NCBI GenBank assembly: GCA_020746835.1
Contig: JAGPNK010000001.1
Coordinates: 620,001-684,000, forward strand
Direction: 5' to 3'
DNA from: Stachybotrys elegans
Taxonomy: Eukaryota > Ascomycota > Sordariomycetes > Hypocreales > Stachybotryaceae
Length of the DNA stretch: 64,000 nucleotides
Below the pieces are notes generated by a model. That model worked only from the letters and a program-made list of their open reading frames with translations. It had not been told where the DNA came from and did no database searches. How positions within the stretch are numbered: position 1 is the first letter of the stretch; every line of letters begins with the position of its first letter. Positions 46,689-62,291 of this stretch are shown here, in pieces. A program made the translations under genes and the position numbers.

Positions 46689-49419
46689 AGGACAAGCACA
46701 GCTTTGTACAGTTACCGGCGAAACTCAATACATTGGGACTTTTCTTTTCGACCATGCATGCCCTCGGCTCGGGCTCTACTTGGTCGCCGTATAGTGGTGC
46801 TGTGACGTGAAGGTGGACGCGATATCACTCGGCTCATCGGGGTGAGCTATAGACCCGCATCTACGAGATATCTTTGGCGATAGACAGCACAGGGTTGGGA
46901 TCAGACGGGTGAGGATTTGCCGGCTTGGAGTTGGACGTATGCCACATGTGTTCCAGAGCCATTGAAGCCATGGTAATGCACCATGAGCTGCACGGCAGTG
47001 TCAATACAGCTACCCACAACCACCAAAGTTCTCTGGGTGATGATTCTGTAACAGAGACGCACACAATTGCTCGCTGCTGCTTCCATTGGGATGGCCAAGA
47101 AATGCAGACTGAATGAATAGTGCCTCTCATGGCTGGCTCGTCATCCGCTGGAAGCCAAGCTGCAAGCGTCGATGCCGGAGTACACTCACATTCGTTGCAA
47201 ACATACGTCAGCATTTGTGTGAGAGTCAGAGGTCAGGCCTAGAGGGAGCAGAAATTATTCTCCCCTTGGATCCGACACCACACAGCCTCGGATTACCGCC
47301 TCAACGGATCGCCGCAGTGTAACACAGCACAACGTGATGGCAAGTCTTGTTCAGCCAACAGGCGTCCTCCCATTTTGCTACGCAAACAAATACATACGAT
47401 GTCATGTTCAAAAGAGACATCGTGACCCTTTCGGCTATCGGTGTAGCATCATCCCGCTGCACAATGACTTAGTGGCGCCGACAAAACGGCAAGCTGAGAT
47501 AGGTAGTTTGTTGGATGAGCTGGCTTGTCCCCCTCTTTTGTTTTCTTTTTCCTTTTCCTTTCTCTTTTTATTTTATTTTATTGTTCTTCATTTTTGCTTC
47601 TTCTGCCAGCTTTGAGAGGGATTGTGGCGGGCGTATTGGTCAAGCCTGGTGCTTTTGCTGCACATTGCACTGGGAAATTCTACGGGTGGTGATTGGTTGA
47701 CGAGCAGGGACGCTGTGACAATAGCTTCCGGATAGGTAGACATGGGCTTGCACTCCGGATTTGGTACCCGTCCATCATCGCAAAGCTCCGACCACGCCGT
47801 TTTTCAGGATGGATGGATGCCTGGAGGCGGCCGGGCAGCCTCACCCGAGAATCACGCACACAGCCATAACGTCTCCATTCTCGGGCAAGATGGGGAGAGG
47901 GCGTCGGTGATTGCAGTGACCTGTTGGCCGTCGACGCATGCCAACAAAAGTCGTGCAAACCACATCACAGCCGTCTTGGTAGGCTTTTTCGGTGAATGTG
48001 TGTGCGGTCGAGTTCGAGTCCCCTCACAGGACCTCCGAGATGCAGTGCCGATCCCAGATGCTGACTCGGCTGAGATGGTCGCGCAGCTCACGACGCTCCG
48101 GCACTTTGCGTCGCGATCCATCACAATTCCCATCCACTTGGTCCATGTAGAAAAAAATAGAGAAGGGAAAAAAATAGGTGACAAGGCAGGTAGAAGTTTT
48201 GTTAATCAAGGGTGACGTGCAATGGGCAACAGCGCTTGAGGTACCCCTGTCTCAGGGTCTACGTCGGTTGTGGCTACTTGGGCTGGCCCAGGCTTCCCCC
48301 ATCAAGGCCCGGTACCTGGAACATTCTAGACTGGCATCTGCATGTACTAGGAGGTATCGACATGCTGCAGGCAAGCGTCACGGGTCAACAATTAGAGGTA
48401 CCTGTTGGGAGGCTCCAGCCCAGCCGTCTTGTGGACTTGGAGGTTCCCTGTCAGTCAGATCCGGATACCAGTACTTTAGCTGCTCCTCTCTTCCTCCCTC
48501 TCTCTGCCTATCACTTGCGTCCATCCATTCATCTATCCATCCATCTCCTCCTCCTTCTCCCCTCTTCTTAATATTTCTGTCCTATCGTTACCACATGCCC
48601 ATCTTACGACCTCATACTATCCTCATTCCTACTATTCCCTCGCAGCATCCTCCGTCTCCCACCTTACTTGCGCCACCACCCATCTTTCCGTACCTTACAT
48701 TGGGCTCTACTTGGCAGGCTGATATTTCTGGATTGTCACGCTACCTATCCACCAAGCCCGCTTCTTAATTGTTCTGGTAAGTGACAAGCGGCCTTTCTGC
48801 CCTCCTTTGTCTGCCTGGGTCTCGTTTCTCGTCACTGCTTCATTCACGCCCTTTCTGCCTGCACCGCGTCCACGCGACATTGTACATCTAGCCTAGTTAG
48901 ACTCGAATACCTCCATTGTTCCCGATCCTCGGCCTCCGGGTACTAACCCAACTGTGCCTACAAACCTCTCTCTCTCTGCCTTGCCACCTGATTGCCTCCG
49001 AGTCCACTTACCTAAGCTCACCTCAGCTTCTCGGCCTATGATATTCATCTCTTCCTCTTGCCTAATAACCTCGAAAACACTCATTTTCCATTTCTTTCCA
49101 CGCCTTTTTTCTTCTTCTTTTCTTCTTATTCTTCTCTCCTCTTTCATGACCTACCTGCTGATCTTCTAATCCTCTCGGCCAGGCTGCTACGATCTTCGGC
49201 CTGGGGTCCTTGAAAGGAGAGCTTAGCTTGCACCAGACCCCCCCCACCAGTACCTACATCACTACTACAGCCTTTCAGCCTTCGTCATTATCTCCCCACC
49301 TGCCTATCCAACGTCCAACAACCACAACGCCGTATACCACACTGGCTTTCCGCGCATTACCTTTTGCTGGCCTTGCCATAGGCCTCGGCTTGCTCGCCTT
49401 CGGAACCGGCCGTGCGCAG
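46689..49419. other. 2.7-kb intergenic region
   Basis: No convincing gene. The largest open frame (about 196 codons, 48178-48768) is low complexity in its second half and matches nothing I know. The stretch from about 48480 to 49370 is strongly pyrimidine-rich and probably includes the promoter and a long 5' UTR of the RING gene. Confidence 0.5.
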
Positions 49420-51177
49420 ATGGACACCCCAAGTCCCCCCACGGGGCATGGCGAGCCCAGGGCCCGTGAGCTGGTCTACTGTCACCAGTGCGGTCAAGAG
49501 TGGTACCGCGCCGACCATGGCCTCCTCTGCCCTTACTGCGAGGGAGATTTTACTGAGATTGTAAGTCAACCATCATCCTGCCTGCAGATCCGTTGGATCT
49601 CTTTGCTCACGGGTTGCTAGATATCTCCGGAGCCTGAACCCGAACCCTCCTCCGCCTCGACGTCGCCCGAGATGCCGCCCTATCACCCCGGCAGTGGCGA
49701 TTCAGACCCCGATGAGGCCGATATAGAAGAACACACGGGGCCTCACGGCTTCCACTACCGCCGAAGCGTCCTGAGCGGCCCCAACCGAGACCATCACCAA
49801 CCAGAGGTTGAGCCCGTGCTGGAGCGCTTCGTGAGCATGATCAACACCTTCGGACCTCCTCAGAGACCAGCCGAGGAAGCGCCTCCGGTCCATCAATATT
49901 ACAGCCCCTTTGGCGAAGCACATGTCCGTCACGCGACTGTGAGCACCTCGGGTGGCGGCAGAGCCTCCTTTACTTTTGTATCTGGGCCAGCCCCAGCCAG
50001 GGCCTTTGGGGAGGCTCACCAGGGGGAGCCCCGAACGGCCGATACCTTCCAAGCGTACGATCAGCCCTCTGCAGACCCGCCCGACCTACCCGGGCCATCG
50101 CGTGTAATCATCATTGCGAGGCTGCCAGCTAACACCCAGTTCAGACTACTTGCCAGCATCATGCGCGACCTGGGGCCCCCTGATGAGCCTCAGCCCGCTA
50201 GCCGTCCATTGCCTCCATTCACCAGGAACCTTCGGGAGATACTGAACCTCCTAGGCAATTCCATCGGCGAGGCCCATGGAGACGCCGTGTATTCCCAGGA
50301 GGCCCTCGACAGAATCATCACCAATCTCATGGAAACTAACCCTTCCAGCAATGCCGCCCCGCCCGCATCCGAAGAGGCCCTTGGGAAACTGGATCGGCGC
50401 CCGATGGATCAGAGCATGATGAACAGTGACGGCAAGACAGAGTGCACCATCTGCATCGACGACATGAACTTGGGCGATACGGCCGCCATCCTGCCGTGCA
50501 AGCACCTCTTCCACGAGGAGTGCGTGCTGTTGTGGTTGAAGCAGCACAACACATGCCCCGTATGTCGGGCTCCCATTGAAAAACAGGAGAGGTCGCCGCC
50601 AGTGCCTGCTCAGGGCTCCACAGATACAGCCTCCATTTCTATGCCCACCGGCGCCGGCCATTCACCTGCCTCTGAACCCGTCCCCGACTACACCGACGGC
50701 GAAGGCTCTAATCGCCCGTTTTCGTTCGGCGGTGCTTGGTTGGGATCCCCTGCGACGCGCATGTCCAGCTTCGGCCCGCCCAGCCCAGGAGAGCAGAGTA
50801 GCGCCAGCCGTCCCGCGAGGCTGTCTCGGCCTCCCAGTCAAAGCCAGAGCCGGTTGAATGAAGCTATGCGCACTCTCTCCTCCAGACAAATGGACCGGGA
50901 GCGGGAGCGGACACGCGATCGTGCGACGTCCTCGGGAACGAGCTATGACTCGCCGTTCATGTCACGACGCAACTCGCTTTCTCCCACCAGCCCTAGGGCT
51001 GGTGACCAAGCCTCGCGCATCCGGCACCGCAGCCCTTCATCGAGCAGCCGTCGCACCGGGGACAGCGACTCTCGACGGCAAGCATCAAGTCACGGGCCCA
51101 TTAGCTGGCTGCGAGACAGATTCTCAGGCGGAGGGAGTTCTGGCAGCGGGCCATCCCGCGAGGGGAGGCGAGGCTAG
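49420..51177 (+). CDS. RNF126/RNF115-like RING-H2 E3 ubiquitin ligase
   Basis: Exons 49420-49560 and 49621-51177 give 565 residues. It should transfer ubiquitin from an E2 to substrates; RNF126-type ligases act in cytosolic quality control of mislocalised hydrophobic proteins. The N-terminus has a zinc ribbon with Cys21, Cys24, Cys37 and Cys40 (YCHQCGQEWY...LLCPYCEGDF), diagnostic of this group. The RING-H2 domain is at about 319-361 (CTICIDDMNLGD, PCKHLFHEEC, CPVCRAP). The middle (about 180-260) includes a conserved-looking block (EILNLLGNSIGEAHGDAVYSQEALDRIITNLME) just before the RING, as in BCA2/RNF126. The C-terminal 200 residues are Ser/Arg/Pro-rich, disordered and probably phosphorylated. 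Only the acceptor at 49620 keeps the frame; an earlier AG at about 49587 leads to a stop. Confidence 0.9.
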
Positions 51178-52549: not shown

Positions 52550-55492
52550 CTAGTCCTGGAAGAACTTGATAATCTGCTGCAGGTCGCGCAGGCCAACACC
52601 GTGCCTCGGGTAGCAGATGTATACCTCTTCACCCAGAGCACCAAACTTGCTTCGGAAATCGGCCTTCTTGCGCAGACCCAAGCTTTCCACAATGGAATTG
52701 TAGGTGGTTGCGAGGAACTTGGCACGGATACCGTTGAGGTGCTCGCCTGGGGTGAGCTTCTCCGACACGCCGACGCCGAAGGTAACCTGACCCGAGACGG
52801 ACGAGAGTGCGAACTCGACCAAGACCTCGATGGCGCCGTTGACAGAGTTGGGGAAGTCGAGCGCCCACTTGACCTGCCAGCCGTAGCGAGGCGCCAGCTT
52901 GGCCAGAACAACCATGGACAGCACGCGGCCATCCTTCTCCGCGGCAAAGTAGCGACGGTGCTCCTTGTCGACCCAGGGTCGGACCTCGGTCAGATGGACC
53001 TGCTTGCCCTTGGTCTTGCGAGAAGCCCTCCACTCCTCAATGGCAGCGTCGGCGCGCTTGATAAAGTCATCATCGAGCTTCACCTCATGAATCTTAACGC
53101 CCTCACGCTCGACACGCCGTGCCTTGGGTCCTCCATTCACACTCTGATGCTTGTCGGCATCGACTCGCTGCTCCTCAGTGCATGACAGCGTTCTCCAGCC
53201 CATCTCATGAGCGAGGATTCCCTGGACGTCGTAGGAGACGAGCATCCAGATAGGGACCAGGCGAAGCTCCGACACAACGAACTTGACAAAGGCATGGAGC
53301 ACCTCCTTGTACTGGGTCTTGTCGCAGAGAGGGTCGCCGGTGACCATGGCGAACTTCTCTTGAGGGACGTATCCGACAGCGGCGCCGTTGGGGTGGCGCC
53401 AGATCTGGAAGCGGTCATCGAGCCAAGAAGTGTTGGTGGCATCGCCATAATTGGCAATAAGCTTCTCCACCGGCGGTAGCTCTCCCTCGGCGTGGGGCTT
53501 GGTCGTGTCGGCCTCCGGGTGGGGCAGACCGGGCTTTCGCTCGGGCAGGGACTTGGGATCACGGTGGAACAGCGAAGCATTTCGAACATCGCCAAGCTCG
53601 AGCATCCAGGTGACGATGCGCTCCAGCCCCAGGCCAGCACCACCATGAGGGGGTGCGCCCAGGTCGAATCCAGACATGTAATCCTCCATGCCCTCCTCTG
53701 ACATGCCGGCGGCATGCATGTTCTTTCGGAGCTGCTCGGCGTCGTGGATGCGCTGGCCTCCGGAGCAGATTTCCTGGCCACGGATGAAAATGTCAAATGA
53801 CCGGGTGAAGAAGGGGTCTTCAGGATCCTTGTAGGTGTAGAAGGGACGAGCGCTGGCGGGGAACTTGTCGAGGATGTAGTAGTCGGTGTCGAACTTCTCC
53901 TTGACCAGTTGGCCAAGTCGGATCTCATCGGGAGTCGAAAGATCCTCCATCTCTACGTCGCGGCCATCGTCGCGCAGCATCTGGATGCCGTCACGGAAGT
54001 CGAGGATGAGCGTCTCATCCAACCACTTGAATTCGCCGCTAGGCCAACGCTTCTGGACAACCTCGACCTCGGGCATGGCGTACACAGCAGCGAAGACCGA
54101 CTTGAGGAACTCGTCGATAACATAGATGACCTCGTGGTAGGTCTCTGAAATTTCCATCTCAATGTCGAGACCGGTGTACTCGGTCAAGTGGCGATGGGTG
54201 TTGGAGTTCTCAGCACGGAAGACGGGGCCTACTTCAAAGACACGATTGAAGTCGGCAGAGATGGACATTTGCTTGGCCAGCTGGGGACTCTGGGCAAGGA
54301 AGGCATTGCGGCCAAAGTAGTTGACCTTGAACACGGCAGAGCCACTCTCGGTGGCGGCGGGCTGCAGCTTGGGGGTGTTGATCTCGACGAAGCCATTGTT
54401 CTCAAGTGTCTCTCGGAACTTGCGAGTCACCATGGAGCGAATGCGGAACAAGGCTTGGTTGGCAGGGTGGCGGAGGTCGAGGATACGGGCCGTCATGCGG
54501 TTGCGCAGAGTCTCTGGGGGCTTGTAGTTGTTGAAGGGAAGGTTGTGGGCCGCGTTGACAAGGTGGATGGACTGGATGTCGACTTCTATGCCAGAGTGGC
54601 TGGTAGAACGAATGGGCGAGGGGGGCTCCTTTAGGATGCCGCTGACCTGAACGAGGGACTCGGGGTGGAGTTTCTGAACCCACTTGACCATGTCCATATT
54701 CTCACGGGACAAGACACCCTGGATGGAGTGCTCCTGGTCACGGAGGAGGAGGAAGTCGAGGGCCTTGGAGATGGGCCTCTGGGTGTGAATACGGGCGCGG
54801 AAGCTGACCTCGGTGCCGATGGGCAGCCTGTCGAGCTGGGCAATGGTATTGAGCTCATACGGGTGGGTAGGCAATTCGGAGCTGGCGCCCGTCTGGCCGC
54901 TCTCGAGGGACGTCTTGGAACGGATGTGGGCGGTGGAGCGCATGATGTCGGCACTCGAGCGCACCATTTCGGAGCTGGAGCGCGGCGAGCCGTTCTTGAG
55001 CTCAACAGCGCTGTCGTTCATCTTGCCGAAGATCTGCTTTCGGAAGTCTGGCGAGAGAGGCTGGATGGGGGAGTCGGGGACTGACTCGTTGAGGGCGACG
55101 TGGCTGCCGCTCACAGCGAAGGGGTTAGAAGGAGGCGCGGGGGACGAAGGCGACTTCTTGTGCCTACGGCTCACGTCGGAGGCGACACTGTCGGGACGAC
55201 TAGGAGGTGCAGAGGTATCGACGGGGCTTTGAGGACCACGCTCATGAGTTTTGTTGCTGCGGCTGCTGCCGGGTGTGTTGCGTCTGGGAGACTGGCCATT
55301 GTGGATGGTCTGGTGGATGGCATTGTCGCTATGCTCGTGGTTTGGAACACGGCCGTGATTCGAGTCGGCATCTCCCACGGGCTCGGGCTGGGTATCATCA
55401 TCCGTCTTTGCCTTGGAAGCCTTGTGCCTGGACCCAATTGGGAAGCGTAGTGCCGAGGCGACAGGCCCCAGAATACCGGTGGCGCTTGGCAT
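52550..55492 (-). CDS. erdS: ergosteryl-3beta-O-L-aspartate synthase: AspRS-DUF2156 fusion (ErdS)
   Basis: A single minus-strand exon encodes 980 residues. Residues 1-205 are a disordered Ser/Pro-rich tail. An anticodon-binding OB fold follows (about 225-315; FRARIHTQRPISKALDFLLL). The class II AspRS core spans about 330-646: AQSPQLAKQ (400-408), motif 2 FRAENSNTHRHLTEYTGLDIE (425-445), Asp-pocket SGGQRIHD (577-584) and motif 3 GLGLERI (620-626). After a linker, residues about 672-975 form a DUF2156 domain (YVPQEKFAMVTGDPLCD at 708-724), the fold that transfers amino acids from tRNA in bacterial MprF. Established knowledge: this exact fusion is ErdS, which charges tRNA-Asp and then moves Asp to the 3beta-OH of ergosterol. 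All AspRS motifs look intact, so it should be bifunctional. A separate housekeeping AspRS is expected elsewhere. The partner hydrolase lies divergently to the right. Confidence 0.93.
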   Translation of the reverse strand: MPSATGILGPVASALRFPIGSRHKASKAKTDDDTQPEPVGDADSNHGRVPNHEHSDNAIHQTIHNGQSPRRNTPGSSRSNKTHERGPQSPVDTSAPPSRPDSVASDVSRRHKKSPSSPAPPSNPFAVSGSHVALNESVPDSPIQPLSPDFRKQIFGKMNDSAVELKNGSPRSSSEMVRSSADIMRSTAHIRSKTSLESGQTGASSELPTHPYELNTIAQLDRLPIGTEVSFRARIHTQRPISKALDFLLLRDQEHSIQGVLSRENMDMVKWVQKLHPESLVQVSGILKEPPSPIRSTSHSGIEVDIQSIHLVNAAHNLPFNNYKPPETLRNRMTARILDLRHPANQALFRIRSMVTRKFRETLENNGFVEINTPKLQPAATESGSAVFKVNYFGRNAFLAQSPQLAKQMSISADFNRVFEVGPVFRAENSNTHRHLTEYTGLDIEMEISETYHEVIYVIDEFLKSVFAAVYAMPEVEVVQKRWPSGEFKWLDETLILDFRDGIQMLRDDGRDVEMEDLSTPDEIRLGQLVKEKFDTDYYILDKFPASARPFYTYKDPEDPFFTRSFDIFIRGQEICSGGQRIHDAEQLRKNMHAAGMSEEGMEDYMSGFDLGAPPHGGAGLGLERIVTWMLELGDVRNASLFHRDPKSLPERKPGLPHPEADTTKPHAEGELPPVEKLIANYGDATNTSWLDDRFQIWRHPNGAAVGYVPQEKFAMVTGDPLCDKTQYKEVLHAFVKFVVSELRLVPIWMLVSYDVQGILAHEMGWRTLSCTEEQRVDADKHQSVNGGPKARRVEREGVKIHEVKLDDDFIKRADAAIEEWRASRKTKGKQVHLTEVRPWVDKEHRRYFAAEKDGRVLSMVVLAKLAPRYGWQVKWALDFPNSVNGAIEVLVEFALSSVSGQVTFGVGVSEKLTPGEHLNGIRAKFLATTYNSIVESLGLRKKADFRSKFGALGEEVYICYPRHGVGLRDLQQIIKFFQD

Positions 55493-55796
55493 GGTCGCTC
55501 AACGCTTGTGCGAGGACAATCGATGATGTATGTCTGGGTACAAGTATAAGTGGGATGAATGATGAAAGGGTGGGGCACAGCATGTGGGTGTGAACGAGTG
55601 ACAAACAGCAAATGGACAGACAAACTGGGGGTGGGAAACTGACCTTTCTTGCAAAGCGTTGGGAATGCAGACTGGATTGTCAGCGAGTCGACGTCGAGTT
55701 CGAGGATGCTGCGGTGACAGAAATACGGATTGCTGGACCGATGTGCAAGGACTGGGTTGCTTTTCGTCACCACGTCGCAACACACAGGGATTTTCT

Positions 55797-55813
55797 GGGG
55801 GGGGGGGGGGGGG
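55797..55813 (+). repeat. G17 homopolymer
   Basis: Seventeen consecutive G residues about 300 bases upstream of the erdS start codon (C17 on the transcribed-gene strand). Confidence 0.85.
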
Positions 55814-56470
55814 TATCTTGGAAATGCTGAGAGAGAAGAGAGGAAGCCGAGGGCAGCGCGATGTTGGTCTCTCGAGATCAACTCAAGCTGCAGATCAGGA
55901 CAGGGAGGTAGGTTGTCGAAAGGGGAATCGCTGAGAGACAGATGATGATGATGGAAGAGCAGAGCAGAATAGGATGGGGATGGGCAAATAGATATTGGAA
56001 GTCCCGGGGCAAGGCAGTTAAATATGATCCACTGGTTCGAGCGGGCTACTAGAAAGAGATGGAAGGCGAGCAAAAGTAGGTGGAAGCGAGAGAAAAGAGG
56101 TATGTTTTATGGTACAATGACCCGTCTAGGAACGGCAAGGTAGGGTAGAAGGCGTGAAGTCAGAAGTCAAGAGACAAAAGGTCTAGGCCGCTAACGATAT
56201 GCCATGGCAGAGGTAGTTCTCGGCACGAGTCGATGCATTGATGGAACAACACATTCTCACACCCCCCCACACACCCCCCCTTCCCTTCCCTCTTTCCCTA
56301 CCACCCCGTCCCTACCTATACTATTATGTACGTTCCTGCCTTGCCCGCTGCGATTGGGACAACTAAACACGATCGCCACAGCTTTGCGATGCGGAATGAG
56401 GTAGGTATGTACGCAAGTGTCGGGCAGGAGCACCCAGCCGCTACTAATGTGGCGGACGCTCTAGACCATG

Positions 56471-56503
56471 GCCTTCCAACAGCCTTCCAACAGCCTTCCA
56501 ACA
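56471..56503 (+). repeat. three perfect tandem copies of an 11-bp unit
   Basis: GCCTTCCAACA is repeated three times, followed by a partial GCCT. It lies between the two divergent sterol-aspartate genes. Confidence 0.85.
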
Positions 56504-57818
56504 GCCTGCTGCCAGTCAATGGCCTGGTGCTGGAACAGGCAAAATAGCATACATGCATACCGCGCCCGTCACAGGCCAAAGCATGCCTCATGGGATGCAT
56601 GTACAGTACTTCGAGGGACGTCCCGGAGGTACGTCCGCCCCTGCTGGTGGAGCACATGCTAGCCCTCTTTCCCGCATCCCGTCTTGGCCGCTTTGCCGGT
56701 ACTCCGTATTCACACGACCCCGAGACGTGCGAGACAGGTCTGGCTTTTACACGGGCGGGATGCGTCATACTTTCGGAGAAGGGCCAGTCATTGGGATGCA
56801 AGCAGTTGGCGGCTGGTGCCACAGTGGATTGGTAAGCGGTTCTCTATCGCTGTGGCTTGAGCCTGGGCATCCACGGGTCCGGTCCTATCAAGACAGGCCT
56901 GTGTTGGTGATGCAGATTGATCTCTTACATACACATGCAGGACGTCATCGAACTGCCGCTGCTCTTGCAGGTGCTGCCTGCCCCTTGTGTCCGCAATTTT
57001 TTCAAGTCTTGCTTTTCGCTCTCCGTCAAATTACCTCAGCGCAGCAATCGACAGGCACACTCGAGCCAATGAAGGGATGAAACGAGTTGCTTGGCTTGCC
57101 CATGTGCCCTCTAGCTGGTCGATCGATGTGGCGCTAATGAACCTGGCTGTTTATCACTGGTACCTGTGGCTTGACTCTGCGACTACTGACAGAGGCGTTG
57201 GAAGCCGTGCGTTGGGGTTGTGGGGCCATTTCATCCCGATAAAACACCACAACCATGTTGGAGTGGGGTGTGGGCTGTAGCCATGACGTCAACACCTCCG
57301 ATCCTGCCGTGTGGCGCCGATTCAACCACCACCATGAAGCGCTCACGCAACTTACCCAAGCTCCCCTTGCTCAACTGCCTGAGGTGAAGCCGTCCCCCAC
57401 AATCCCCCACGACAAACTACATCATAGGTATCACCTCAACCAACCTCCCTGCAATCACCGGCTGCTTTGCTCCGGCCCTTTGTCTGACAATTCACTTGCT
57501 CTGACGATGTCACATACGTCCCTGATGCACCTGAAAGTTCGATTGATCGATTGTTGTCTCCATTTTCAATTTCAGCCTGCTCAGGTGGTTGTTTCCCGGT
57601 CTAGTGGTAAGGTGGCTGGGTGGGCAGGAGGTAGGTAGGCACAACCTTAGAATCTAGGCAAGCAACCTAGTAGCTCATCTGCCCAACCTGGCAGGCAGGT
57701 TAGTATGCAGCTGTGGCTGTCTTAAATTACTCCAGGTATCGTGTAGCTCGACGTCACTGCTATGGGTAAGCTGCTCTGTTCTGCTTGGCTGCCCTTTGTC
57801 ACCTCGCCTCCAGCTCCC

Positions 57819-57842
57819 CCTACGCCTACGCCTACGCCTACA
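57819..57842 (+). repeat. CCTACG hexamer repeat
   Basis: Three perfect CCTACG units and a fourth ending in A instead of G, about 550 bases upstream of the hydrolase start. Confidence 0.8.
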
Positions 57843-58384
57843 GCATCCGTACTTGCGCCGAGGAACCAACGCCCATCACACCACCTACGGCCCTTTACCT
57901 CGCATCGCCTCACCTTATCTGATAATTAAGGCACCGAACCTTGATCCCCTCATGGTGTCGGCGCATTGGCATCGCTACTGATCTTGAGTTCTGCCCCGCC
58001 ACCGCCTATTTCCCACATGTTTTTTTCCTGCCTTGATTCATGCTCCCTCTCCAGTAGCATATTGTCTGTCACTGGCCCCCTCTTGTCTTTTCCTTTGGCC
58101 ACGGTTCAATAGAGCTCGAGAATATAGAAGAACCAAACAAGCATCGCAGGCCACCCCGGGTTTAACTGTCACGTACCGCCCACACAGCTTTTTTAAGCTA
58201 CAACAAGCTTTTCGGCACGTCACCTCCCACCTTTCCCCCCCGGGCCCCATTTCGCTCTGCAGTCTGCTTCGCTTTACTGCGCTGGGTGACGGACTGACGG
58301 CACCTTCTTGTCATCCGAGACATCTTTGATGTACTCTGTCTACACTTACCTGTCCACCTGATACGCGCGCCTCTACCGCACCTA

Positions 58385-59524
58385 ATGGATGCAATCGTCG
58401 CAACAGAGAGCAATCCCACAACCCCGGAGCCCCCCGGCTATGTGAACCCTCTTGAGTCCAGCTCCCGGTGGTATCTCGTCGCTCGAGCCCAGGCTATTCG
58501 GTATGCCGCCAGCCTGGGCTTCAGCATCGCAAACCGCATGGACCCTCCGGCTCCTTCGCCATCCGACGAGATCTGGCTGGATTCTACCTTGTCTGAATAC
58601 AAGGGCAAGCAGAAGATCAAGGTCGAGGTGTGGAAGCCCCCGAGGCTCTGTGTCGGACCTCGGGCAGCAGTCATCACGTTTCATGGGGGAGGCTGGATCC
58701 TGGGTCAGGGCACCGACGACGCTCGATGGGCCGGTGCCGTACTCAGCTGCCTCGATGCGGTCGTCTTTACTGTCAACTACCGCCTTGCTCCGAACTATCC
58801 GTTCCCCAATCCCATCGAGGACTGTGTGGATGCCGTCCTCCAGATAGCCTCCCGCGCTAGCGAATTTGGAATCGACCCCACGCAAATCATTCTCTCTGGG
58901 TTTTCTGCGGGCGCCTCCAACGCCCTAGCCAGCTGGGTCATCCTCAACGACCCTTCGGCCTGGGGCTACAAGCTCCCATCCCCGCCACCTGATATTGCTG
59001 GGCTCACCTTATTCTACCCCGTGTTGGACTGGACCATTTCTCGCCCAGAGAAGCGCCAGACGTGCTCCAAACCAGAGCTCACCCTCCCCAAAGGCTTGAC
59101 GGATTTGATCGATGCCTCCTACGTCTACCCGCCCATCCCCCGCGAGCAACGGACGGATCCGCGGCTCTCGCCGGGGCTCATGTCTACCGAGTTGTTAAAG
59201 AAGCTACCCCCTATCCACCTCTGCCTGTGCGAATATGACATGTTGCTTGCAGAGGGCATGAGGTTTGCCAAGCGACTTGAATCAGAAGACAAGCCCTTCA
59301 GCCTACGAATCGTCAACGGGGAGAGGCACGCATGGGACAACCCACCCCCCATGGCCCCCAAGGAGAGCGTCAACATAGAGTACTCTGAGGCCATTCAATC
59401 TATGGCTGGCTGGCTGGGCCAGACTGGCGACACTGACAAGGAGTCAGTGAGCTCTATGAAGACGAAGAGACCTGCCCTACGCCGCCCCAGATACCTGACT
59501 TTTAGGTCTAGGACGGTAAGATAG
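58385..59524 (+). CDS. erdH: HSL-type alpha/beta hydrolase, candidate ergosteryl-aspartate hydrolase (ErdH)
   Basis: A single exon encodes 379 residues. The hormone-sensitive-lipase family motif HGGGW (100-104) forms the oxyanion hole. The nucleophile is Ser174 in GFSAG (172-176), the acid probably Asp285 (CEYDML) and the base His315 (GERHAWD). No signal peptide or membrane helix is seen; the C-terminus is basic (RPALRRPRYLTFRSRTVR), which could aid membrane contact. Established knowledge: ErdH is an alpha/beta hydrolase that removes Asp from ergosteryl-aspartate, and its gene is often near erdS. Inference: this gene, divergent from erdS in the same window, is that hydrolase. The HSL family is large and includes many unrelated esterases, so the fold is certain but the substrate rests on context. 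Confidence 0.78.
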   Translation: MDAIVATESNPTTPEPPGYVNPLESSSRWYLVARAQAIRYAASLGFSIANRMDPPAPSPSDEIWLDSTLSEYKGKQKIKVEVWKPPRLCVGPRAAVITFHGGGWILGQGTDDARWAGAVLSCLDAVVFTVNYRLAPNYPFPNPIEDCVDAVLQIASRASEFGIDPTQIILSGFSAGASNALASWVILNDPSAWGYKLPSPPPDIAGLTLFYPVLDWTISRPEKRQTCSKPELTLPKGLTDLIDASYVYPPIPREQRTDPRLSPGLMSTELLKKLPPIHLCLCEYDMLLAEGMRFAKRLESEDKPFSLRIVNGERHAWDNPPPMAPKESVNIEYSEAIQSMAGWLGQTGDTDKESVSSMKTKRPALRRPRYLTFRSRTVR

Positions 59525-61430: not shown

Positions 61431-62291
61431 TTACCACTTGGCCTCCTTGCTCTCGACGAAGCCCTTGAGGATGCCGACAATCTTATCGAGGGCAGCGAGC
61501 CAGGGGCGCAGGTCAGCCTCGACCTTGTCGGTGTCAGAGCCGAGCTTGCCGTAGAAGTCCTTGCGGTAGGGGCAGGCGCTCATGGCGGCGCTGAAGACAG
61601 GCTTGACGAGGAAGCTGTGGTGAGGCTTGAGGGTGTTGCTGTAGGCGCCGCGGAAGGAGTCGGCGAGCTCCTCGCTGGGCTTGGCCAGGTTCTGGCTGAG
61701 GGCGATGCAGGTGAACTCGAGACCACTGGTGCAGAGGAAGCTCACGGTTAGTTTATGGGACCTGGAGAGGGATGAAAAGGGGGCGGGGAGGAGGGGATGT
61801 ACCGGACCAGCCAGAGGAGACCCTCGGTGGCGGTGTGCTTCTTGGTCTTGAGCTCGTTACGGCAGAGGTCCTGGATGTTCTCCGACTCGGCGGGGGCAGC
61901 GAGCTGGCGTTCACGGAGCTTCTATTCAAAGGGATCGAAGCGTGGTCAGCGAGGAGGACTCGTAACAGGATAGGGGGCCACCGGCGGTTGGAGGGGACGG
62001 GGAGGGGTCGAACCTTGACGTTGCCGAGGATGTCGTTCTTGACGGGAGCAAAGGTCACGGCACCGAGGACATCTGCACACAAAGACAGTCAGAACAGGGA
62101 GCTCTTGGCTTGTCAGTAAAAGGGGGGGGGGGGGGGGGGGAGTTACCAAACATGGTGGTGAGGGACTCGGCAGCATCGAGAAACTGCGTGGTGCCGATGG
62201 CATTGCCATTGTCTGCGTCAATGGGGACGTCGACGAAGCTGGCCTTGAAGGTCGACACGAGCGTGCCACCGGGAGGGATTGCAGCAGACAT
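61431..62291 (-). CDS. het-c2: HET-C2 glycolipid transfer protein (GLTP fold)
   Basis: Four minus-strand exons (62291-62147, 62072-62014, 61921-61803, 61725-61431) give 205 residues, the usual size for fungal HET-C2. GLTP-fold proteins carry glycosphingolipids between membranes in the cytosol. All head-group-binding residues of the family are visible: Asp62, Asn66 and Lys69 (NDILGNVKKL), Trp105 (LLWLVRGL) and His144 (KPHHSFLV). In Podospora anserina the orthologue het-c is a heterokaryon-incompatibility locus with polymorphic alleles; whether it acts so here is unknown. Intron 2 has an unusual GTTCGA donor, but the join NVK/KLRERQ is exactly what the family requires. Intron 1 contains a G19 run near the donor (C19 on the gene strand). 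Confidence 0.93.
62122..62140 (+). repeat. G19 homopolymer inside HET-C2 intron 1
   Basis: Nineteen G residues (C on the gene strand) starting about six bases after the GTAACT donor of intron 1. Confidence 0.9.

Follow-up and report, generated by a model that had tools for sequence, protein, structure and literature searches.

Two enzymes of ergosterol aspartylation, ErdS and ErdH, are the closest described counterparts of the genes considered here, a divergent pair in a 64,000-nucleotide stretch of Stachybotrys elegans DNA (the window; contig JAGPNK010000001.1, positions 620,001 to 684,000), from a genome of 43.4 Mb in 61 contigs. Both enzymes were reportedly described by Yakobov et al. in 2020, with ErdH removing the aspartate from ergosteryl-aspartate. 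ErdH is a serine hydrolase of the HSL type. According to two articles, ErdS charges tRNA-Asp and transfers the aspartate to ergosterol (PMC9437257, PMC10449517), and a third identifies the Aspergillus fumigatus enzyme as AFUA_1G02570 (PMC11619415). ErdH was not found in the accessible portions of the literature searched, which included a review on the field (PMC9437257).

The two genes of the window lie at 52550-55492 on the minus strand and at 58385-59524 on the plus strand, each as one uninterrupted frame, and sequence comparison leads us to read them, with a probability of about 85%, as the writer and the eraser of ergosteryl-aspartate in a fungus of the Hypocreales close to Stachybotrys. 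Neither open reading frame is due to chance, since 1867 relatives of the synthase and 494 of the hydrolase reach E 1e-30; the relatives listed below are the best 120 of each set. The aspartyl-tRNA synthetase (AspRS) part of ErdS would charge tRNA-Asp, its DUF2156 part would move the aspartate from Asp-tRNA onto the 3beta-hydroxyl of ergosterol, and ErdH, as an HSL-type serine hydrolase, would cut the aspartyl ester to release ergosterol and aspartate. We infer both reactions from the published work on ErdS and ErdH, and the pair may then deserve the description of a complete module given to it in an earlier, first-pass annotation.

Like ErdS, the minus-strand protein carries, after an N-terminal tail, an AspRS with a C-terminal DUF2156 domain and stands apart from the housekeeping AspRS, but its tail is longer, the match beginning at residue 218 here and at residue 131 in a solved chain of 947 residues. 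The likeness of the neighbour to ErdH lies in the name borne by its nearest relative and in the finding of no better candidate in its own genome, whereas the difference is that it falls into one group of hydrolases (clade A, see below) and three other ErdH-named sequences into another (group B), a comparison made through names. ErgS, the ergosteryl-3beta-O-glycine synthase, is a comparable aminoacyl-tRNA transferase specific for sterols, but it is supplied with Gly-tRNA by an independent glycyl-tRNA synthetase (PMC10449517), whereas the DUF2156 domain of the window is fused to AspRS. Mycobacterium LysX, which acts in lysyl-phosphatidylglycerol synthesis, also joins a synthetase and a lipid transferase in one chain (PMC9437257), but with a lysyl-tRNA synthetase (LysRS) rather than AspRS and with another lipid; the window protein scores 88.8 bits on NF002821, against a cut-off of 742.

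Fungi are already known to have this pathway, and the locus is an ordinary, well-preserved example of it in a new genome, to which the recurrence of the neighbourhood in other genomes and an adjoining GLTP gene are modest additions. The neighbourhood in the Hypocreales and the existence of two hydrolase groups may be of use to specialists. Aminoacylated sterols link tRNA charging with fungal membrane chemistry, and a linked synthase-hydrolase pair in the Hypocreales offers a simple place to ask whether sterol aspartylation runs as a controlled cycle, and which hydrolase group reverses it.

The ErdS-type synthase

The minus-strand gene (52550..55492) encodes an AspRS-DUF2156 fusion of 980 residues in a single open frame. 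Pfam recognises the class II AspRS catalytic domain at residues 331-644 (53561..54502; tRNA-synt_2, PF00152, E 3.3e-74) and the DUF2156 aminoacyl-tRNA transferase domain at residues 686-961 (52610..53437; LPG_synthase_C, PF09924, E 1.1e-12), both over their cut-offs, and the OB-fold anticodon-binding domain at residues 229-310 (54563..54808; PF01336, E 5.2e-5) falls narrowly short, with 23.5 bits against a curated cut-off of 27. Residues 226-649 pass the AspRS equivalog model TIGR00458 (401.9 vs 368.4 bits), and the models for asparaginyl-tRNA synthetase and for LysRS stay under their own cut-offs. In an alignment of 35 sequences, including that of the window, the AspRS motif stretches FRAEN...EYTGLDIEM and GAGLGLER vary little or not at all, and the DUF2156 part has many columns that are invariant with the 34 relatives.

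The solved chains 9w9e, 9w9f and 9w9g (862 and 947 residues) match residues 218/219-980 in one stretch, with E values from 5.1e-240 to 3.4e-232, and the DUF2156 part of the window protein aligns with the solved fusion up to the last residue. In the structure table these chains are labelled only 'Aspartate--tRNA ligase, cytoplasmic'; their DUF2156 half suggests that they are ErdS. The relatives align over their full length, as does P0122 (978 aa), which is 77% identical and covers 100% of the query, and the closest named organism among the 120 best relatives is S. chlorohalonatus (77% identity). The source name 'ergosteryl-3beta-O-L-aspartate synthase' is found on two of the 120 (P0139 and P0199), others being called aspartate--tRNA ligase or aspartyl-tRNA synthetase.

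The N-terminal tail (residues about 1-217; 54842..55492) is predicted to be disordered, both from the confidence of the structural model and from the point where the match to the solved chains begins. The model is poor, with a predicted local distance difference test (pLDDT) score of 56.2 overall and block means of 23-35 up to about residue 210, and the structure searches made with it support the AspRS part alone and are silent on DUF2156, with 9w9e-g outside the 50 best rows of either search.

Twelve tRNA-synt_2 matches are found in the genome, which we grouped at seven places. A separate AspRS, at G000:C2:1073272-1074319, ends without a DUF2156 domain and its last exon is closest to the yeast AspRS (1eov/1asy), so that ErdS would be an extra enzyme beside the housekeeping AspRS. 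Neither the family search of the genome, in which the window gene was the only match out of two candidates, nor the protein search found a further DUF2156 gene, and the genome therefore offers no ErgS candidate. The identification of the minus-strand gene as ErdS is thus well supported by architecture and sequence, namely by the domain order, the match to the solved chains, TIGR00458 and the finding of no other DUF2156 gene. The first-pass annotation had made the same identification, and its coordinates, the order tail-AspRS-DUF2156 and the intact AspRS motifs are borne out by the positions of the open reading frames, the Pfam domains and the motif alignment.

The divergent hydrolase and its relatives

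The plus-strand gene (58385..59524) encodes a protein of 379 residues without an intron, the candidate ErdH. It contains an Abhydrolase_3 domain at residues 96-317 (E 1.9e-41), and its model, built from 68 sequences, has a pLDDT of 90.1; the best 50 solved matches of this model in Foldseek are HSL-type esterases and lipases, for example 7wol and EST2, at 19-25% identity. Alignment locates the oxyanion-hole motif HGGG at residues 100-103 (58682..58693) and a catalytic triad, with roles assigned by family analogy, of Ser174 in GFSAG (58904..58906), Asp285 in CEYDMLLAEG (59237..59239) and His315 in ERHAWD (59327..59329). All of these residues are identical in the 120 best-listed relatives. Searching with a core profile of 205 residues, and taking the best 120 of 1081 rows, added 110 rows beyond the first listing, in which the triad and HGGG agree save in one row at His315 and two at Gly101, with one to four rows gapped. 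The HSL-type alpha/beta hydrolase with an intact Ser/Asp/His triad that had been proposed at first pass is therefore what domain, fold and conserved residues indicate.

The nearest relative (P0001, 95% identical) bears the jgi name 'putative ergosteryl-3beta-O-L-aspartate hydrolase', and the closest named organism among the 120 best is S. chartarum (83%). When the whole genome was searched with the hydrolase, the gene itself gave 873 bits and 13 other matches gave at most 70.4 bits, at 26-39% identity over parts; the runner-up, at 70.4 bits, is 29% identical. P0322, a distant relative named ErdH, also finds the window gene first, in two pieces of 94.5 and 89.3 bits, and the next gene at 59.4. 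We further compared the relatives with a set of loci from the same genome, made up of the best 30 of 51 Abhydrolase_3 matches and nine synthetase or DUF2156 loci; within this set the window gene is the best locus for all 230 listed relatives, by a margin of at least 20 bits. A better ErdH orthologue elsewhere, which had been named in advance as evidence against the assignment, was thus not found in the whole-genome searches or among the 30 of 51 loci set against the 230 relatives, a judgement made against relatives rather than a characterised enzyme.

The relationships of the hydrolase were examined in a first tree of 46 relatives and nine paralogues from the same genome, two of which formed long branches, and in a rebuilt tree of 41 rows, which kept 35 of the 46 relatives and five of the nine paralogues (the two long branches and two more were dropped). 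In the rebuilt tree the window hydrolase, other Sordariomycetes, Cryptococcus and Kwoniella form clade A, with a support of 100/99. Group B comprises Pezizomycetes, Orbiliomycetes, Dothideomycetes, Lecanoromycetes, a single Daldinia and a single sequence assigned to Moniliophthora (classes by organism name); it is not resolved as a clade, its monophyly being neither shown nor rejected (approximately unbiased test, p 0.487). We relied on path lengths and best matches, because an unrooted tree of three clusters always lets the own paralogues form one side. The mean path length from the window gene to group B is 2.86, against 6.69 for the other five HSL-type proteins of the genome in the tree. 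The core-profile rows reach the Tremellomycetes, Pezizomycetes, Dothideomycetes, Lecanoromycetes and Orbiliomycetes (again by organism name), and no Aspergillus-named hydrolase is among the best 120 of these 1081 rows.

Two further observations concern the family at large. In some Fusarium species there are diverged relatives, P0265 (46%) and P0296 (41% identity to the window protein), and close ones, P0040 and P0041, stand at 72-73%. Two near-identical HSL-type genes of the source genome, at G000:C22:213017-213667 and G000:C6:176655-177305 (L014 and L015), have near-zero branches in both trees; they either arose by recent duplication or were duplicated in the assembly.

The gene neighbourhood in other Hypocreales

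In the two sets of 120 listed rows, six assemblies print locus tags for both erdS and the hydrolase, and in five of them the tags are one or two apart, which indicates closeness and says nothing of orientation. The tags are consecutive in Claviceps citrina (E4U41_003766/003767), Claviceps sp. LM454 (E4U14_000754/000755), C. lovelessii (E4U54_006204/006203) and Hirsutella minnesotensis (HIM_02719/02718), and two apart in Cordyceps javanica (V2A60_003001/003003).

Equal contig size was used as a proxy for location on the same contig. In the same lists there are 26 erdS-hydrolase row pairs whose longest contigs have an identical base count, and these contigs measure less than 35 kb in nine pairs and less than 125 kb in 15; on megabase contigs the proxy carries no information on closeness. 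Where both rows are named, the organism is the same in all cases (14/14). Five of the tagged assemblies are included among these pairs, so that the two counts overlap. The neighbourhood of erdS and hydrolase is repeated across genera of the Hypocreales.

Alternative explanations and flanking genes

Several observations weigh against equating the divergent gene with ErdH. Rows named ErdH occur in clade A (P0001) as well as in group B (P0322, P0326 and P0349), and for this reason the name does not settle function. That of P0001 likely comes from automatic annotation and is weak evidence, and 'acetyl esterase/lipase' is the name of six of the seven jgi-named rows in the 120 best hydrolase relatives (57-78% identity) and the only one given to 13 of the 16 jgi-named rows in the core-profile listing; our guess is that the jgi names differ because the automatic annotations were made at different dates. 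The sixth tagged assembly, that of Cordyceps sp. RAO-2017, has widely separated tags, which lie on two different short contigs (8,190 and 3,552 bases). Finally, at one ErdS locus from another assembly (L057, 47% identity in the best segment), neither the window hydrolase nor any of 24 of its relatives finds a match within 10 kb on each side, and two hydrolase queries match elsewhere in the 7.3-Mb record of L057, which may be only partly fungal, at 27-31% at most.

The assignment made at first pass consequently stands in part: the name of the nearest relative, the finding of no closer candidate in the same genome, the HSL fold and the repeated erdS neighbourhood favour ErdH, and the division of ErdH-named rows between two groups tells against it. 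Many source names, such as 'aspartate--tRNA ligase, cytoplasmic', 'dps1' and 'acetyl esterase/lipase', hide the ergosterol-aspartylation pathway.

The head-to-head arrangement around an upstream region of 2.9 kb, described at first pass, agrees with the 2,892 bp that separate the two start codons (55493..58384), and co-regulation through this region is possible. No gene was recognised there, four open reading frames wholly or partly inside giving no Pfam match, and its repeats are at most weak two-copy ones. Exact scans for the consensus sequences of two sterol-regulator motifs gave no site in the gap, and the window as a whole holds three sites of one against 3.92 expected and four of the other against 2.01, which is no clear excess. 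By a small preference we hold that the two genes are adjacent through inheritance alone, with separate regulation, a situation compatible with their being ErdS and ErdH: the distance leaves room for separate promoters, the motif scans are in keeping with it, and L057 carries ErdS with no hydrolase found nearby. Against this, the linkage is repeated across genera, and would be kept more easily if it mattered.

It is improbable, in our view, that the synthase is ErdS and its neighbour an HSL-type esterase for another substrate, such as acetyl or other steryl esters or xenobiotics, instead of the eraser. HSL-type esterases vary in substrate and the family name proves none, the names arylesterase, arylacetamide deacetylase, lipase and acetyl esterase/lipase are common among the listed relatives, and the ErdH name occurs on both sides of the split between clade A and group B; but the nearest relative is named ErdH, no gene of the same genome was found to fit better, and the association with erdS recurs across Hypocreales genera. 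A more elaborate proposal, which we regard as quite doubtful, is that in the Hypocreales ErdS travels with a hydrolase lineage of its own (clade A), distinct from the ErdH-named group B and unlike it in specificity, and forms with the adjacent GLTP/HET-C2 lipid-transfer gene a three-part unit to make, move and unmake the aminoacylated sterol. That the fusion charges tRNA-Asp with a DUF2156 part that is inactive or acts on another lipid is very improbable: such enzymes do differ in lipid and amino acid, using glycine in ErgS (PMC10449517) and glycerolipids in bacteria (PMC9437257), and the product is unreadable from sequence, but the domain follows the solved fusion to its last residue, shares many invariant columns with the 34 relatives, and two relatives are named ErdS at source.

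The L057 locus lies on a 315-kb contig (NYXK01000071.1) titled Deltaproteobacteria bacterium CPC1, where an AspRS-DUF2156 gene, seemingly broken by introns, stands amid fungal-looking genes; it is probably a fungal contig misfiled in a bacterial assembly. The idea that the fusion came from bacteria or archaea was considered and rejected, as among the 80 loci kept of 562 confirmed L057 alone extends past query residue 686, and its DNA is fungal-looking. On viral contigs, 27 pattern matches included no confirmed relative of the fusion.

On the far side of the synthase, the gene pair is flanked by a gene for a RING-H2 zinc-finger protein (49210-51177, plus strand; frame 49672-51177); a possible zinc-ribbon exon upstream of this frame, in 49210-49620, scores under the Pfam cut-off. 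Past the hydrolase, the next recognised gene is the GLTP gene, for a glycolipid transfer protein (61431-62291, minus strand), so that a lipid-transfer gene lies beside the lipid-modifying pair; its start was placed by eye, and its last exon matches Pfam PF08718 (E 6.1e-21) and the HET-C2 structure 3kv0 (E 9.3e-45).

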